From a virus, in IMG/VR virus record IMGVR_UViG_3300047319_001872, positions 248,001-312,000 of that record: a DNA stretch of 64,000 nt. One strand, written 5' to 3'. Numbering within the stretch: the first letter of the stretch is position 1; each line of letters begins with the position of its first letter. The notes below the pieces were generated by a model. It saw nothing but the letters and a program-made list of their open reading frames with translations, was not told the origin of the DNA and searched no databases. Shown here piece after piece: positions 13,368 to 63,334 of this stretch. Position numbers and translations under genes: made by a program.

Positions 13368-14057
13368 TTACAGCCACGGCATCCTGGACGGGCTATCTGT
13401 ATCTTTACGCTCGGCTTCGAGACGAGCTGCCGCTGCGTACTGCCCCGCCAACACCCTGGTACGACCAGCGCTCAACCCAAGCGTGGCCGAGATTGTCAGG
13501 TACGTAAAACCGCGCGCGTGCAGATCGTGAATCACCTTGCTCAGCAGCATGGCCGCACAGTGAACCAAGTGATTAGCCCGTTCGACGTCGCGACTGAGAT
13601 AGATAGTGTTATCCGCCTCGGTTACCCAGTCCCATTGTCCGGGTGTCAGCACTTGATCGAGCTTGTGCAGCGAACGAATTCGATTCACGTGCTCTTTAAA
13701 ACGCTGGTGGTAAGTGCGCCGCGCTTTCTCGGTTTTGTCTTTCGCCATCCGGATACGAGCCTCTTCGACCAGTTCGTTGTACTTCTTCATGGCGAACTCA
13801 CCGATACTTTCTAAGTAATCGCGATTGGGATCATGCGGGCTGTGCTCCCAGTCTCGATCAAACTCTTCGGTCCAACTCACGACGAGATCGAACAGTCCCC
13901 GCGAACCGTCCAACAGCTCCATGATGCCGTCGCTCAGGTCCGCCTTCATCTCCGCACAGCGCACGCCGAGGAACATCGAGATGTCAAAGAGAATCTCTTG
14001 TCGGCGCTGATAATCGACAACCGTTTCTTCGGCCGCGCGTTCGTAACCTTTACTCAT
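13368..14057 (-). CDS. Unknown helical protein, 229 residues
   Basis: The start at 14057 (MSKGYERAAEE) is chosen for the AAGGAG site; an upstream ATG at 14081 lacks one. The product is almost wholly helical and charged (EEARIRMAKDKTEKARRTYH), with a segment 'HDLHARGFTYLTISATLGLS' that could be a helix-turn-helix. No family recognised. It belongs to the early-type minus-strand run. Confidence 0.6.
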   Translation of the reverse strand: MSKGYERAAEETVVDYQRRQEILFDISMFLGVRCAEMKADLSDGIMELLDGSRGLFDLVVSWTEEFDRDWEHSPHDPNRDYLESIGEFAMKKYNELVEEARIRMAKDKTEKARRTYHQRFKEHVNRIRSLHKLDQVLTPGQWDWVTEADNTIYLSRDVERANHLVHCAAMLLSKVIHDLHARGFTYLTISATLGLSAGRTRVLAGQYAAAARLEAERKDTDSPSRMPWL

Positions 14058-14087
14058 GTGTTGCTCCTTGTTTCTAATCATTTCAAT

Positions 14088-14390
14088 TTAGTACAGATCG
14101 ATGACCAGCGGGGGATTTTTAATCTTTCCCAGCCAGGCGCGGGCTTTTTGCAGTGAACGTGGCACGAGCTTGGGCTTGAGTCCCATGCCCGGTTCCACCA
14201 GGATGAAATAATAGCCCTCCGGCGTCTTGTAGAGGGTCTGCTTGCCGCCCCAGCGGTTGCCGACAACCCACACCCTCAGAATTGGGTGAGCGGTCTGCAG
14301 GTCGTATGTCCTGCGTCGGTGCACGAGTCGTGCTTGCTCGTAGTCCCAAGGCAGGTCATGACCGTAATGATCGATTTCACTCCAATTCAT
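14088..14390 (-). CDS. Unknown 100-residue protein
   Basis: The ATG at 14390 follows a GAGAGGA site; a longer frame begins at 14411 without a good site. The product (MNWSEIDHYGHDLPW...) is Arg/Trp/Tyr-rich with likely beta strands ('ILRVWVVGNRWGGKQTLY') and a basic C-terminal part. No motif recognised. Confidence 0.55.
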   Translation of the reverse strand: MNWSEIDHYGHDLPWDYEQARLVHRRRTYDLQTAHPILRVWVVGNRWGGKQTLYKTPEGYYFILVEPGMGLKPKLVPRSLQKARAWLGKIKNPPLVIDLY

Positions 14391-14414
14391 TTCCTCTCTC
14401 CTGAGGGTCATAGC

Positions 14415-14432
14415 GGGAGGCCGAAGCCTCCC
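14415..14432 (-). terminator. UUCG-tetraloop hairpin
   Basis: A perfect 7-bp stem GGGAGGC/GCCTCCC has CGAA on the plus strand, UUCG on the minus. It is flanked by GTCATA and TTATGTCG and follows the gene at 14441-15457. Confidence 0.68.
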
Positions 14433-14440
14433 TTATGTCG

Positions 14441-15457
14441 TTAGTCCCGGTATTCAATCCGGAACTTCGTGACGGGGTAGCTGCCATCCCCGCACAGATC
14501 TTCTTCGAGCTCCGACGAATCAAACACACCGGGATACGCTTCGTCGATCGCGTCACGCCGCACGCAGTCGCAGCTCGCGTTGTTCTCTTCCCAGTCGAAG
14601 ATGGCGTAGTGGCCTTCGTAGCCGTAGCCATAGTCCTTGGTGATCTCGTACTCCTTGCCCTTGTAAAGCAGGGAGAGCACCGCAACCGTGCGCTTACGCA
14701 CCAACGGACCTTCCGATTCAGTCCACTCGAGCGTGTTGTAGAACTTCGGCAACAGCTTGAGGAACTCGGTCACCTGGGCTTTGAACATCTCGCGGTCTTC
14801 TGCGCTGTCGAAGTACATCGCGCGCTGGTACATTTCGCCACCAGCACGCGGTACATCGGGCTTGCCGTAGCGCCCCACGAAAAGCGGATTGCCAAACGCC
14901 GCGCCGGTGAAGCTCAGCCGGTATTCCGTCTTACCGAACTTCGACGCTTGCTTGATAAACGCGGCATCTTCATCGCTCACTGCTTCGAAGAGTTCGCGCT
15001 CCGGGATGTACGGACCCGTGAAGGTCTTTTCGAGCACCCATTGCTTAAAGTCCTCAGGCGGCTCGACGTTATGCTCTTTGACGTAGTGCATGAGCCCTTC
15101 CGGCCAGCACCAGTCTTCGATGCGGAACTCTCTGTAGCCATTGCTCTCACCGCAGCACCGGCAGGTCGATGAACCCCGATAGTGCTCGATGAACTGGTAG
15201 ATGAACTGCCAGCGCGGCGTGAGCGAATTGTACTGCCAGAACGGGATCGAAGGCTTACCAGTGATCTGGCGTGCTTCAAAATCATCATTCCAGACCTTTG
15301 ATGCTTTCTGTACCTTGACTAGTTCATTCCAGTAGACCGCTTCGATCCACGCGAGGTTGAGCAGGAACTCATCTTGTCCTACCCACTTCTCTTTCTGCGG
15401 CAACGGCCACGGGAACGTGGGTTCTGCATCGCTATACCAAAATCCAACTTGTTTCAT
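14441..15457 (-). CDS. Unknown 338-residue protein
   Basis: AAGGAG precedes the ATG at 15457. The protein is rich in Trp, Tyr and acidic residues, with one Cys pair motif CRCCGE near residue 97 that could bind metal and a C-terminal acidic part with CDC near 309. Both strands and helices are expected. No family recognised. It is the second gene after the early-type promoter at 16203. Confidence 0.62.
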   Translation of the reverse strand: MKQVGFWYSDAEPTFPWPLPQKEKWVGQDEFLLNLAWIEAVYWNELVKVQKASKVWNDDFEARQITGKPSIPFWQYNSLTPRWQFIYQFIEHYRGSSTCRCCGESNGYREFRIEDWCWPEGLMHYVKEHNVEPPEDFKQWVLEKTFTGPYIPERELFEAVSDEDAAFIKQASKFGKTEYRLSFTGAAFGNPLFVGRYGKPDVPRAGGEMYQRAMYFDSAEDREMFKAQVTEFLKLLPKFYNTLEWTESEGPLVRKRTVAVLSLLYKGKEYEITKDYGYGYEGHYAIFDWEENNASCDCVRRDAIDEAYPGVFDSSELEEDLCGDGSYPVTKFRIEYRD

Positions 15458-16202: not shown

Positions 16203-16231
16203 GTAATATAGATCTATAATTGGTTTGAATC
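16203..16231 (-). promoter_or_regulatory. Early-type promoter (extended)
   Basis: On the minus strand: GATTCAAA (16231-16224), 13 bases, TATATTAC (16210-16203). TATATTAC is the core I know for phiKZ early promoters used by the virion RNA polymerase. The first gene starts 71 bases downstream at 16132. The terminator of the muramidase gene lies immediately upstream. Confidence 0.8.
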
Positions 16232-54907: not shown

Positions 54908-57037
54908 TTAGTGCGAGTCTGACACGAGGCGTGTCAATTTGTCGTTCGAGAGATAAATCCCGAGCGTTTCGAGGATAATGTAAAATACGCGCGTAGCATC
55001 CGCGACGATCTTACGCACCCCAGCCACCTGGAGGATTTCAGTCGGAATCCCTTTAGTCTGGAGATTCTGTTCCGGCAATTGCACCGAGCCCACATAGCGC
55101 TTACCCATTCGCTTCATGTACGCTTCCATGCGACCTGCCAGTTCCCGATCCTCGAGCGACTCTAACCACTCACGGGTCTTAGTCGGTGTGTCCAGCTCAG
55201 TGGCAATCTTGACACAGGTGTACGGTACAGGGGGGGCGATACCGTACTTGGGACCAAACACCTCATTCCACATCACGTACTGCTGATACGGCGATTCATC
55301 CGCCGACTTCGCATACGAATCGGGCGTTTTAATCTGACCCATCCGGAAAAACTGATAGCCGCCTTCGCCGATCGCCGTAAAGATCTGGCGCTCGATGTCA
55401 GCAATCGTCTTCAGGATGTCGTGGATCTTGATCTTCTCACCCTTCAGGACCGAGTTCATGATAAAGAGCATCATCTTCTCGGCTTCCTTAATTACGAAGC
55501 GCGGGGCGTTCGACGCCTTCAAGTGCACACCCTTGATTTCCTTCTTGTACTCCTTGAAGAGGTTGCCTTCCTGGCAGCCAATCAAGGCGAAGTAGTGCTT
55601 GGCCACTTGGGTCGCGACAAACACATCGAACTTGAATTCGTTCTTCATGGCGACTTTGTGGATGTACTTCTCCACAATGCCAAAGTTCGCACTCATGCGC
55701 GCCAAGACGTGAATGATGGTCTGCGCAGCGAGGTACACCATCGACGCTGCCACCGCATTACACTTCTCGTCAAAACCGAGCCAGCCCTGATGCCAGAGCA
55801 CCCAATCTTGCACGGTAAAGATGGTCGAGTCCGTATCCGACGTAATCGCCGAACGACGAATCGAGTCGGGGAAGAACGCGAGCGAGGCCGGTACATTGGT
55901 CGTCACCCAGAAGGCCGCGATCAGGTCCCGATATTCTTCACCCACATCGCCGATGTTCTTGGCCGTCGAGGCCAGGATACCGCGCGCTTCGCCGACGATT
56001 TCATGCATCTGCAAGCCCTTGGTGTAGCGCTCACAGATTTGGGCTGCCAGGTGCACGTGTTCTTCTTGCACCGTCTTCAAGATGCTGTCCGGCTCCGGAT
56101 GCGGCACTTCCACCAGCATCGACAGCTTGCTGATGAACTTACGCACCACCTCGTCATTAAAACGCATCAGGTGGTACAAGTCACCCGTGTAGACAAAGGC
56201 GGAACGCTGCTCGGGCGAGAGCGTCTTCACCAGGTCATACACCTTTTTCATCTTGAACTTGTCGCGCACATAGAAGTTCGTCGAGTACATGATGCATTCC
56301 ATCGTCTCATCGACCGACGGATGACGAATGCCAAACTTCTGCATCGCCGCAGCTTGCGCTGCATAGTCCGTGTGGTTGATAATCGAGATGATATTCTGCA
56401 TGCAGATCTCGATCGACCAGTAATGGCGATTGCCCGAGAGGAACTTCTCGTTATTCGCATTACCAAAGCCCGAGGTCGAGCGACAGTTCGAGGTGAGCGT
56501 CGAGTGAGCGGTCTTATTGTACAGCGGGGTCGAAGGACTGACGTGCGCACCCGAGATCGAGTTATTCGCCAGCTTCTTATTGGTCTGCTCATTGTCCTTG
56601 ATCTGCATCAGGACGATGTCGCCTTCCATTTCCGCCTTGAACTTTGCCTTCTTTGCCACCCCCCGTGCTTTCACGTTGCCCTCGATGTAGTCGACGAGCG
56701 GTGACTGCTTCTGGTCCGGATGCAAATACGTGGTGAGCGTCGGCGCAATCAGTTCTTTGTTACGGATCGAATCATTCAGGTAGGCCTGCAGCGTGCCTTC
56801 CATCTGGACCCGGTCACCGTTGTCCTGACGCTCGAGGTAGACGATCTTCGGGTCCTTGAATTCAAACTGTCCGCCGGGACGCATCTCCGTTTTCACAAAG
56901 GTCGTGCAGTCCTCGATCGGTGCCCCCGTCATTTGATGCAAATAGGTCGCGCAGTCCTGGACATAATAGCCGAGGACGTTTAGATCGCGCTTGTACTGGG
57001 AAGGCGCCAGTACAAATGGGTTGTTCGCTTCTGACAC
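54908..57037 (-). CDS. B-family DNA polymerase, C-terminal half (motifs B and C)
   Basis: A 709-residue protein with a GTG start after AAGGAG. Motif B is 'KKLANNSISG' (154-163; Kx..NSxYG type) and motif C is SDTDSTIF (400-407). A palm/thumb region follows ('KNEFKFDVFVATQVAKHYFA'). The exonuclease and motif A are in the gene at 9025-10998. The first 150 residues would continue the fingers/palm after the split. Together the two chains should form one replicase. Confidence 0.88.
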   Translation of the reverse strand: MSEANNPFVLAPSQYKRDLNVLGYYVQDCATYLHQMTGAPIEDCTTFVKTEMRPGGQFEFKDPKIVYLERQDNGDRVQMEGTLQAYLNDSIRNKELIAPTLTTYLHPDQKQSPLVDYIEGNVKARGVAKKAKFKAEMEGDIVLMQIKDNEQTNKKLANNSISGAHVSPSTPLYNKTAHSTLTSNCRSTSGFGNANNEKFLSGNRHYWSIEICMQNIISIINHTDYAAQAAAMQKFGIRHPSVDETMECIMYSTNFYVRDKFKMKKVYDLVKTLSPEQRSAFVYTGDLYHLMRFNDEVVRKFISKLSMLVEVPHPEPDSILKTVQEEHVHLAAQICERYTKGLQMHEIVGEARGILASTAKNIGDVGEEYRDLIAAFWVTTNVPASLAFFPDSIRRSAITSDTDSTIFTVQDWVLWHQGWLGFDEKCNAVAASMVYLAAQTIIHVLARMSANFGIVEKYIHKVAMKNEFKFDVFVATQVAKHYFALIGCQEGNLFKEYKKEIKGVHLKASNAPRFVIKEAEKMMLFIMNSVLKGEKIKIHDILKTIADIERQIFTAIGEGGYQFFRMGQIKTPDSYAKSADESPYQQYVMWNEVFGPKYGIAPPVPYTCVKIATELDTPTKTREWLESLEDRELAGRMEAYMKRMGKRYVGSVQLPEQNLQTKGIPTEILQVAGVRKIVADATRVFYIILETLGIYLSNDKLTRLVSDSH

Positions 57038-60295: not shown

Positions 60296-61105
60296 TTAAT
60301 CTTCAAAATCGCGGCCGTGCTCCATCATCCACGAATAGATCCGATAGTCGATGGTCTTTTCCACCCGCACCACCGTGTTATCCACTTTCATGAAGTGCAT
60401 GATCCAGCGATCTTGTCCCAAGAAGTCTGTCAACTGATGTAGCATGTCGCTCAATTGCAGCGTGATGCTCTCACAGATCTCCTGCGACGCGTAAAAAAGT
60501 TGCTTGTCCTGTTCCGAGATGCGCGCGCGGCCCAGGTCATCCGTGGGTTCATGCTCCACGGCGACGATGTTGCCGGTTTCCCCCCAGCTAAAATTGGCGT
60601 CATTCGGATCTTTCGGATACTGGAACACCGAATCGACCGTGATGCCCGAGCGCTGGAACTGCTCGAAAAGAAACGGACGGATCACCGCGTCGAAATTCAG
60701 CTTCTTGTGGCCGCGACGAATCCGGCCTTGGCTGGACCACTTCGCATGGTTGATCACCATGTGGTCAATCAGCTCGATGAGCAAATTGCGTGCGCGCAGT
60801 GAAAAGCGTGACTGCGGCTTCAGATACGGCAGATGCACCTTGGGTACGACCAGATCGGCTTTCGCATCGTAGACTTCGTCGCGCAACGGCAACTCGAAAG
60901 ACGTAATCGGGATCGGTGTGGCGACATTGTTGACCGCTTCACCTGCGTAGAAATACGGCTGTCCCGCGACCATCACCGGCTCACACTGAGTCGGCAGGTA
61001 CAAGCCTTCCGGATTGGGCAACATGTAGGGACCTGCGGCAGCTTCCACCGCGTCGACCCAGTCTCCCAGATCCAGCACCAGCGTTCCAGTGATTTTCAGT
61101 TCCAT
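60296..61105 (-). CDS. Unknown 269-residue protein of the row
   Basis: The ATG at 61105 overlaps the end of the upstream gene (AAAATGGAACTGA), so it is translationally coupled. The N-terminal part is beta-rich ('MELKITGTLVLDLGDWVDAV'); the C-terminal part is helical and contains 'LTDFLGQDRWIMHFMKVDN', related in layout to neighbours. Function unknown. Confidence 0.6.
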   Translation of the reverse strand: MELKITGTLVLDLGDWVDAVEAAAGPYMLPNPEGLYLPTQCEPVMVAGQPYFYAGEAVNNVATPIPITSFELPLRDEVYDAKADLVVPKVHLPYLKPQSRFSLRARNLLIELIDHMVINHAKWSSQGRIRRGHKKLNFDAVIRPFLFEQFQRSGITVDSVFQYPKDPNDANFSWGETGNIVAVEHEPTDDLGRARISEQDKQLFYASQEICESITLQLSDMLHQLTDFLGQDRWIMHFMKVDNTVVRVEKTIDYRIYSWMMEHGRDFED

Positions 61106-61503
61106 TTTCTTTGGTAGTCGTAGTTCGTATTGGCAGGGCGATTGTGCACGTAGTACCACATGTACAAGTCAATCCCGCGGATTTCTAAGTCGATGAAGCA
61201 GTTGTCGCCGTACAGCTGCGGCACCTTGATGTATTGGCCGGTGTAGTAATCCAGGTCCAACTCGGAGCGGATCTGGGCATGCAGTCGGGCAAAGCGCCAG
61301 TCCTGCGGGTCGTGGTTCACCGAGAACAAATGATACACCTGCTCAATCTGTTCTTTGACGATCCATTCGATTAAGCGCTCTTCAGTCAACCCGGAGAAGA
61401 TCAGTTGACTCGCAACTGCCCTCGTAGCGCCCTTTAAGACGCTCAGGAAGTCATGGATCTCCTGGATCAATAGCGCCCTAGGTTCGACGGTTAAGAGGTT
61501 CAT
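61096..61503 (-). CDS. Small protein of the row, first gene
   Basis: AAGGAG precedes the ATG at 61503. The 135-residue product has helices then 'VPQLYGDNCFIDLEIRGIDL'. It starts the row directly after the terminator at 61568. Function unknown. Confidence 0.6.
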   Translation of the reverse strand: MNLLTVEPRALLIQEIHDFLSVLKGATRAVASQLIFSGLTEERLIEWIVKEQIEQVYHLFSVNHDPQDWRFARLHAQIRSELDLDYYTGQYIKVPQLYGDNCFIDLEIRGIDLYMWYYVHNRPANTNYDYQRKWN

Positions 61504-61567
61504 GGCGGCTCCTTATACACAGTATCCAGCGGCTACGTTTGTTTTGACTATTTGTGTAACTGCGGCA

Positions 61568-61622
61568 TAAAAAAATAATCAGTCCCTTTTGCACCCTCCC
61601 GTAGGAAGGCATAAAAGGGACT
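61568..61622 (-). terminator. Intrinsic terminator ending a minus-strand non-coding transcript
   Basis: AGTCCCTTTT (61581-61590) pairs with AAAAGGGACT (61613-61622), 10 bp. On the minus strand it is followed by GATTATTTTTTTATGCCGC. It closes the 740-base gene-free stretch after the tubulin gene. Confidence 0.8.
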
Positions 61623-61740
61623 CGCCTCGTCCGATGCTCACCCAAACAGCTACCCGTAAAACGGACTGTGGTATTGTTGCGGTCGGAACTGAGGCGGTCT
61701 GGACATCTCAAGCTGCGAGCCAAGTGTTAGGCCCTAGTGC

Positions 61741-62153
61741 TAATTTTTAGACAGTCCATGGACCTCTAAACAATTGCTTCGGGTACTCCCTTGAAAACTG
61801 TCGCACTTATTGCCTCCTGCGCACCAGTAGGCGGCAGGCCATTACTCACGGAATGTAAAAGACCCTAGCCCCCGATGCACCCCCTGCGCCTGATGCGCGG
61901 TTCGGCTGGAATGGGACTAAAGTCTGCGCATGGCCAAATCATCGGTCCGAGTCAACGGGCCAAGCGCATCGCCTCAATGGCTGAAGGTACTACGAGCACC
62001 CTTAGCTCGCGTTGCCTTCCCCAGCTGGGGACGTCGCGCATGATGTCTATTCACCCTCGCATGCGCCTGCAAGGGTGAGGACCGATGAACTTTACGAGTG
62101 GCGGCGGCCTGAATGGACGGGAACCACGAAAAATCGTGATAGATAAACCGTCC
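61741..62153 (-). ncRNA. Large structured RNA candidate C
   Basis: Part of the 740-base gene-free stretch 61504-62243. Helices seen: TCATCGGTCC/GGACCGATGA (61939-61948, 62079-62088, 10 bp), TCACCCT/AGGGTGA (62051, 62072), CCCC(AGCT)GGGG (62019), CGAGC/GCTCG (61993, 62005), GGACGG/CCGTCC (62115, 62148) around CACGA/TCGTG, GACAGT/ACTGTC (61750, 61797), GCCTCCTGC/GCGGCAGGC (61812, 61831; 8 of 9). GATGCGC/GCGCATC (61892, 61964) crosses the 10-bp helix, a pseudoknot if real. No gene with a ribosome site fits. Strand is minus by the terminator at 61568. Confidence 0.6.
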
Positions 62154-62243
62154 AAAGTCAGACCACCACCACCGGGCCAGAGAGCTGATCTGGCTAAACA
62201 TCGGTTCTTATTGCTTTCCTTATCGTGTCGTCCAGCGTTGTTG

Positions 62244-63248
62244 TTAGAGGATCAGCCCCGTTTCATCCGCACGGTCGCCTGCGCCCAGAATGGACTTGTG
62301 CGCGACGCGCGACTGCTGTTCCTCGCTCAGGTGCGAGAGCACCTTTTGCACGTTGGCCACGGCTTCGTGGATCACCCGGTCGCCCGTGATGTAATGCACC
62401 GGCGATTCCTTGGCGATGTTCTCGGGCATGTCGGCCGGGAACAGTCCGAGAAAGCGCACTTCGGGCATGAACGGTAGCGTCGCATCAGCGCCCGCTTTCG
62501 CCAGCGTCGCAACGCTGATGACATTGCCCACGTGAGCGTGCGATTCGCCGTTCTTGACGATGTGCAGGCCTGCGAGCATCGGCTGCTTGAAGGTGGTGAC
62601 CTTGTCGAAGCGCAACCAGTTGTAGAGGTCACGTGTATCGAGCTCGGTGTTCTCGCGGCTAAAGAGCGCAGCGAGGCCGACCACGACGGTTTCGATTTCA
62701 GCGTCCACCGCAGCGCGCGGGGTGTCTTGCGTGTTCTGCAGATAGGCGATGACGATCGGGGCGCCCGCGGCCTTGGCGATGGCTTCGTAGGACTTGATCG
62801 TGTTGAGCGTGTTCTCCGCGTACAGCCGGGTCGAGGCATCGCCCACCATGACCACCACCACCGGCACGTCACGTGCGAGCAGCTCTTGCGTAAGAATCGG
62901 GCCGATCACCGAACCCGAACCACCCGACGCCGAATGCAACACCAGTGCCAGGTTACCCGGCTTGTGCGCGTGCAGGATTTCCTTGACGCGTTCCTTCACG
63001 ACAGCGGCATGTTCGCGGCGCACTTGTCCAGAACCGTCGAGGCCCTGGAAGTGGTAGATCGCGTTCGCATCGATGTTCGCGTTGAGCATGTTCGACTTGC
63101 TGGTGTCGATATACGTCGGCTCGACGACAGCCATGCCAGCTTGTGCTTTACCGCGGTACTTCTCGAAGCGCGTCGCAATGTTCGTGCCAGCTCCGCCCGC
63201 TGCGTAGATGCTGATACGACCTTTGACTTTCTCGATGATTTCGGACAT
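62244..63248 (-). CDS. phuZ: PhuZ phage tubulin
   Basis: A 334-residue tubulin/FtsZ-fold GTPase. The N-terminal strand-loop 'YAAGGAGTNIA' (15-25) is the first nucleotide-binding loop; 'HSASGGSGSVIG' (105-116) is the tubulin signature G-loop. The C-terminal acidic tail is the type used for lateral contacts. In phiKZ-like phages PhuZ filaments form a spindle that centres the phage nucleus and carry capsids to it. AGGAAAG precedes the ATG. It is second after the promoter at 63802. Confidence 0.9.
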   Translation of the reverse strand: MSEIIEKVKGRISIYAAGGAGTNIATRFEKYRGKAQAGMAVVEPTYIDTSKSNMLNANIDANAIYHFQGLDGSGQVRREHAAVVKERVKEILHAHKPGNLALVLHSASGGSGSVIGPILTQELLARDVPVVVVMVGDASTRLYAENTLNTIKSYEAIAKAAGAPIVIAYLQNTQDTPRAAVDAEIETVVVGLAALFSRENTELDTRDLYNWLRFDKVTTFKQPMLAGLHIVKNGESHAHVGNVISVATLAKAGADATLPFMPEVRFLGLFPADMPENIAKESPVHYITGDRVIHEAVANVQKVLSHLSEEQQSRVAHKSILGAGDRADETGLIL

Positions 63249-63334
63249 GTTTCTTTCCTAGTTTTTTCAAATTGAAGCACTCCTACATAGTAGGGGATGT
63301 GCTCGTAAAAAATGCCCGTGGTGAAACGGGCACC

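Follow-up and report, generated by a model that had tools for sequence, protein, structure and literature searches.

GOLLD and ROOL are large structured RNAs of phages and prophages that are frequently encoded near tRNA genes and that, as a class trait, form RNA-only multimeric cages. To our knowledge, large structured phage RNAs comprise only a few families with no known function and are a long-standing puzzle. Large intergenic RNAs of lytic phages include the ~800-nt ncRNA of ICP1 and lnc001 and lnc002 of phage K (PMC7567579, PMC9241854), and Grad-seq identified ncRNAs of about 100 and 180 nt in phiKZ (PMC8545117). Here, we describe a locus behind the phage tubulin gene phuZ that almost certainly encodes a real, new, clade-restricted structured RNA matching no catalogued family. 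As in the case of GOLLD and ROOL, this RNA is phage-encoded, falls in the range of 500-800+ nt, is multibranched, and is supported by covariation; unlike them, it has no Rfam similarity, carries a conserved ORF, and is located behind phuZ in a jumbo phage. While the ICP1 and phage K RNAs were found by expression, the RNA described here was found by conservation and covariation. phiKZ is likewise a phuZ-bearing jumbo phage with ncRNAs; however, our covariance models R1 and R2 find nothing in phiKZ. We also considered that the phiKZ ncRNA in the 5' UTR of "p40" could be syntenic with phuZ-gp40 but rejected this candidate because the phiKZ039-040 gap is only ~55 nt; "p40" is presumably a differently numbered locus tag.

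The window, i.e., the whole 64,000-nt stretch of DNA analyzed, spans positions 248001-312000 of a virus record of 313,315 bases. Because a phiKZ-type DNA polymerase and phuZ are among its minus-strand genes, we assign the genome to a 313-kb phiKZ-like jumbo phage, and the same two genes suggest that this phage is presumably nucleus-forming. Among cultured phages, Burkholderia phage FLC9 is the closest relative, with 61% identity in PhuZ. The region of interest lies on the minus strand between phuZ and a gene for a hypothetical protein, and the main features are:

54908 to 57037, minus strand: gene for a phiKZ-type divergent DNA polymerase of family B (Pfam divDNApol)
61096 to 61503, minus strand: next gene after the RNA, encoding a 135-aa hypothetical protein and having its own probable promoter
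61569 to 62214, minus strand: conserved, structured, multibranched RNA of ~645 nt (192-pair consensus; alifold z -14.9)
62244 to 63248, minus strand: phuZ, encoding the phage tubulin, upstream of the RNA (PHROG 4733, tubulin PhuZ; E 1.4e-82)

The 135-aa protein has homologs with 56-58% identity in FLC9 and in the metagenomic contig L020 and has no match in Pfam or PHROG. The first-pass annotation, made from the sequence of the window alone, had described positions 61504-62243 as a gene-free candidate large RNA resembling GOLLD and ROOL. The large structured RNA is strongly supported by our data, with its coordinates corrected to about 62214-61569 on the minus strand; the resemblance to GOLLD and ROOL holds in kind, while a scan of Rfam for GOLLD, ROOL, and other large RNAs gave no match, neither at the gathering threshold nor at E <= 5. 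Judged by sequence, GOLLD and ROOL are therefore analogues only. No tRNA genes are present anywhere in the 64-kb window and hence none beside the RNA, and the tRNA cluster of FLC9 is ~120 kb away from the RNA in record coordinates. This FLC9 cluster (L117:27624-29822; 127.6-129.8 kb) is itself unannotated, contains eight tRNA genes according to ARAGORN and gives 10 Rfam matches, and has a counterpart in the genome of the window (G000:118775-119982).

Using blastn against 50,697 phage records, we obtained one real match to the region, namely FLC9, with 75% identity over 97% of the region; the FLC9 counterpart carries no annotation. Among IMG/VR contigs, two copies (L002 and L003) are near-identical to the window, three (L004-L006) are 90% identical, and two more are present in L020 and L007. 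The RNA of the window is 77% identical to that of FLC9 and 69% identical to that of L007, while the identity at fourfold-degenerate sites in the neighboring phuZ gene is 52% and 46%, respectively. Thus, the RNA exceeds neutral DNA in conservation, arguing that it is under selection. Scans of viral contigs for exact patterns returned the known members of the clade and one new contig, L020, and nothing else; scans of genome contigs with the RNA pattern and with the next gene returned none. Applied to 19 whole records, models R1 and R2 detected the RNA only in the L004 and L006 genomes and in FLC9 and detected nothing in the 16 other records, including phiKZ, LucasX, FLC8, SURPRISE13, and Eowyn; a single R1 match with an E value of 0.32 is at chance level and was disregarded. 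By sequence and covariance searches, the RNA is known from the FLC9-like clade only.

Several other stretches came to light during these searches. In phages with a PhuZ that is 42-44% identical, ~600 nt behind phuZ are conserved and have no clear codon signature (L031:6982-7640, L032:6991-7650, L033:6985-7650, and L036:6994-7600); these stretches contain a 31-nt block (GGATACCGC..AGGA..GTATGGA) that is identical in two of them, with a covarying hairpin that resembles the hairpin at 62010-61992 of the window. The covariance model scores them only at E 0.35-1, single-sequence z-scores are mostly weak, and profiles of the small ORF described below have no match there. These stretches may be distant relatives of the RNA, with scores that fall short of significance. 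At L032:7890-8070 and its counterpart in L033, the sequence behind an acyl-carrier-protein-like gene (AACCGGCGCGCGCCGCTTGCGGGT..) is nearly identical, and the preceding gene less so. Two IMG/VR contigs from different samples (L028 and L095) contain related phuZ genes, which would represent an additional lineage, and end inside phuZ, so that the RNA region is cut off. Finally, another conserved gap, ~720 bases long and flanked by divergent genes (L010:13729-14447; FLC9 13752-14470), is 72-88% identical to metagenomic relatives, with a G+C content of 0.47 compared with about 0.55 in other gaps, and may be a regulatory region, an origin, or an RNA.

The many helices noted in the first-pass annotation do exist on the minus strand, at a level clearly above chance. 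The minimum free energy of the minus strand (661 nt) is -290.8 kcal/mol compared with -231 +/- 5.3 for dinucleotide shuffles (z -11.4), while the z-score of the plus-strand fold is -4.5. For the seven aligned sequences, the consensus fold has an energy of -221 compared with -123 +/- 6.6 in column shuffles that preserve conservation (z -14.9), and it comprises 192 pairs with 97.2% of the cells paired. Covariation in homologous regions, which had been named beforehand as the refutation test, was found in the form of two-sided compensatory changes in 40 of these 192 pairs. In controls in which one strand was slid by 1-3 columns, 36-44% of the cells were paired and two to six pairs had two-sided changes; because the structure was derived from the same sequences, this control flatters the percentage paired, and the two-sided changes are the stronger evidence. 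The independent lineages are few, and support for pairs is given as counts of two-sided changes. An energy-free de novo search gave weaker evidence, with seven covarying helices compared with a mean of 1.3 and a maximum of five in shuffles; on the opposite strand, it identified six, as expected from symmetry. The minus-strand model has more G-U and fewer A-C cells. Because the first half of the ORF evolves as a protein (see below), we repeated the test without the putative coding part, and two-sided changes were present in 35 of the 142 pairs. The following parts of the RNA are distinguished:

62051 to 62078, minus strand: hairpin of 10 bp, seven pairs with two-sided changes, invariant GGCGC loop
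61992 to 62010, minus strand: hairpin with a 7-nt UAARGGN loop, four of six pairs with two-sided changes, 100% paired
61925 to 61968, minus strand: 10-bp hairpin with element C (see below) in its loop, 100% of cells paired, z -3.4 on its own
61702 to 61814, minus strand: long 3' arm with several covarying helices
61623 to 61696, minus strand: 3' module of two types with the same covarying closing helix
61569 to 61622, minus strand: terminator-like hairpin followed by GAUUAUUUUUUU, with a U-A to A-U compensatory pair

The clearest compensatory helices are those at 62078-62051 and 62010-61992, in the arm at 61814-61702, in the stem at 61696-61623, and in the terminal hairpin. At the tip of the 3' arm (61764-61753), most relatives have a hairpin that covaries and whose loop is self-complementary; in L007, it is absent as such. 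An alternative in which the region acts as a DNA element, i.e., an origin or a packaging or recombination site, could accommodate that several modules look recombined between relatives; however, the compensatory changes, the asymmetry in favor of the minus strand, and the strand-specific terminator-like end argue for an RNA and make this alternative the most improbable of those considered here.

To relate the RNA to transcription, we analyzed promoter motifs and the RNA end, which involves two further features:

63286 to 63289, minus strand: TATG within TACTATGTAG upstream of phuZ, a phiKZ-type late promoter motif
61563 to 61569, minus strand: TATGCCG directly after the U-run, invariant, the probable late promoter of the next gene

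In phiKZ, late promoters consist of TATG with the G as the start site (PMC4666361). The TATG before phuZ is conserved in FLC9, L004, and L007 and is likely the joint promoter of phuZ and the RNA. In the window and the FLC9 stretches, the sequences upstream of genes are enriched in TATGCCG (8 found versus 0.69 expected) and in TATATTAC, which we take to be the phiKZ early promoter motif. In the window, TATATTAC is present at 16210, 35228, 40246, and 63809 (minus strand), and these sites are candidate early promoters. Neither of these two promoter motifs is present between phuZ and the RNA; therefore, the simplest reading would be that the phuZ transcript includes the RNA at its 3' end, perhaps followed by processing. 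A simple scan, the scope of which is bacterial rather than phage promoters, identified no consensus sigma-70 promoter on either strand. The intrinsic terminator proposed in the first-pass annotation is borne out in that the 3' hairpin at 61622-61581 with its U-run is conserved and covaries, whereas a strict terminator scan calls nothing because the U-run begins only after GAUUA.

The absence of a recognized promoter between phuZ and the RNA, together with a conserved end hairpin just ahead of the promoter motif of the next gene, is also what would be expected if the RNA were a long structured 3' UTR with no function in trans, which would stabilize the mRNA of phuZ and provide insulation from the next gene. 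However, a stabilizer would need neither sequence-invariant blocks nor an embedded ORF. Moreover, the gap downstream of phuZ is short in most other chimalliviruses, including phiKZ (~55 nt), LucasX, FLC8, SURPRISE13, and Eowyn. We consider it improbable that the RNA is only a 3' UTR.

Contrary to its description as gene-free, the region contains an ORF on the minus strand, the first half of which evolves in the manner of a coding sequence:

61974 to 62201, minus strand: unannotated 75-aa ORF (ATG to TGA), open in all seven aligned relatives

All seven sequences share the start codon and also the stop codon, except that the latter is shifted in L007. In the first half of the ORF (alignment columns 51-164), 26 of the 47 variable positions are at codon position 3 (p 0.0016), and the sole indel is 3 nt long and in frame; based on this codon bias and this indel, we suggest that the first half evolves as a protein. 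In columns 111-155, a sub-range picked after inspection, 13 of 16 variable positions are at codon position 3 (p 0.0001). After column 165, there is no excess at codon position 3, the covarying helices begin, and the ORF appears to evolve mainly as RNA with the frame still open. Continuation of the ORF by a -1 or +1 frameshift was rejected upon inspection of the alignment, as both frames close soon after column 165. With a cruder coding score for the whole region, the best segment is in the ORF frame and scores above 95% of column shuffles, not all. The consensus of the N-terminal half is MFSHVRSLARWWLSEMKWxYHDFSWFPSIQAAAxRKVHR, while the C-terminal half is basic and overlaps the RNA core. An AlphaFold model has low confidence (mean pLDDT 58) and is helical in the N-terminal half only, suggesting that the conserved first half is probably helical. 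The protein has no match in Pfam or PHROG and no convincing tblastn homolog outside FLC9, and the Shine-Dalgarno sequence ahead of the ORF is weak or too distant. Altogether, it is likely that the RNA also carries an overlooked small gene.

With this ORF, the RNA has the covarying fold of several hundred nucleotides of a large structured phage ncRNA and is probably not noncoding. Nevertheless, a serious possibility, if not a probable one, is that the RNA is large, noncoding, and free-standing like those of the GOLLD/ROOL kind, stable and perhaps self-assembling, with an ORF that is a leftover or only marginally translated. Such an RNA would fit the strong covariation seen in columns 165-709, where no codon signature is present, and would have precedents in the large, abundant RNAs of the phages ICP1 and K; moreover, the self-complementary loop of the tip hairpin would suit homodimer kissing, which has been seen in OLE and GOLLD (PMC12286853). 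On the other hand, this loop is lost in L007, and selection on a protein is needed to explain the excess at codon position 3 and the in-frame indel found in columns 51-164. The codon signature stops near column 160, where the compact RNA begins, and the core contains a pseudoknot (see below), both of which could also indicate a self-splicing intron or other ribozyme in a small gene, with the coding first half as exon 1. However, no group I or group II intron or other ribozyme family matches in Rfam at E <= 5, and there is no codon signature of a second exon anywhere before the terminator, leaving this explanation very improbable.

Three invariant elements connect the start codon of the ORF to the core of the RNA:

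62199 to 62206, minus strand: element A, AACCGAUG, the ORF start codon and 5 nt upstream; invariant in 7/7
62079 to 62088, minus strand: element B, UCAUCGGUCC, which pairs with A or C; invariant in 7/7
61939 to 61948, minus strand: element C, GGACCGAUGA, which forms 10 bp with B and is situated within the hairpin loop of 61968-61925; invariant in 7/7

A-B pairing comprises 7 bp, covers the AUG of the ORF, and has a calculated energy of -10.3 to -11.2 kcal/mol, while B-C pairing comprises 10 bp at -18.9 to -19.2 kcal/mol. The latter is the 10-bp long-range pair (61939-61948 with 62079-62088) of the first-pass annotation, which is indeed present and does not vary among the seven aligned relatives; this pairing is a pseudoknot, because C is located in the loop of the well-supported and fully paired 61968-61925 hairpin. 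The competition among A, B, and C at the start codon, like the ORF itself, had not been noticed. Because the three elements never vary, neither pairing shows covariation. When the RNA is folded up to just after B, the AUG is paired in 7/7 sequences; in pseudoknot-free folds of a longer stretch, the pairing partners of the AUG region are partly different. Based on these elements, we hypothesize that a switch dependent on folding order controls translation initiation of the small ORF, a reading that we consider natural and yet somewhat unlikely. Metastable hairpins at start sites have been described for toxin mRNAs of the aapA3 and hok types (PMC6733600). As would be the case here, the start region in these mRNAs is first hidden and later freed by an alternative pairing in the same mRNA; however, there is no sequence relation, no antisense RNA was seen here, and the likeness is one of logic only and does not imply toxicity.

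Considering the evidence together, we tentatively favor, at somewhat less than even confidence, that the region forms the 3' portion of the transcription unit of phuZ and has two jobs, folding into a structured RNA and encoding a small protein under the control of a switch. According to this model, transcription from the phuZ promoter would generate a multibranched, conserved RNA of ~645 nt with its 3' end at the terminator-like hairpin, and the first third of this RNA would also serve as the mRNA of the 75-aa protein. In the emerging RNA, B would pair with A and hide the start codon; C, which would be transcribed ~140 nt later, would then capture B in the longer 10-bp pseudoknot and free the start codon. 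Thereby, the small protein would be made only from an RNA with a folded core, and we speculate that this core would then persist as a stable RNA or as the scaffold of an RNP.

Parts of the RNA have different histories. In the N-terminal half of the ORF, the window is 80% identical to FLC9 and 69% identical to L004, while phuZ and the remaining RNA show the opposite order. Across the variable arm, L006 shares 95% identity with L020 and 72% with the window, and the two types of the 61696-61623 module are 34-41% identical between and 82-95% identical within types. These comparisons suggest that modules are exchanged between relatives by recombination. Speculatively, such exchange may fit recombination under selection for diversity, e.g., for specificity between related phages. 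It is conceivable, if rather doubtful, that the RNA represents a new class in phuZ-bearing jumbo phages in which an ornate RNA is also the mRNA for a small protein, a pseudoknot times the availability of the start codon, and exchangeable modules (the N-terminus of the protein, the variable arm, and the 3' domain) may set specificity between competing related phages.

Our findings place a new large structured RNA immediately downstream of phuZ in presumably nucleus-forming phages. Because FLC9 is a cultured carrier, and because the RNA contains a pseudoknot that is conserved and a probable small gene, its function is directly testable. Moreover, it appears that seemingly "empty" intergenic regions in jumbo phages with annotated genomes can conceal a gene as well as an RNA.
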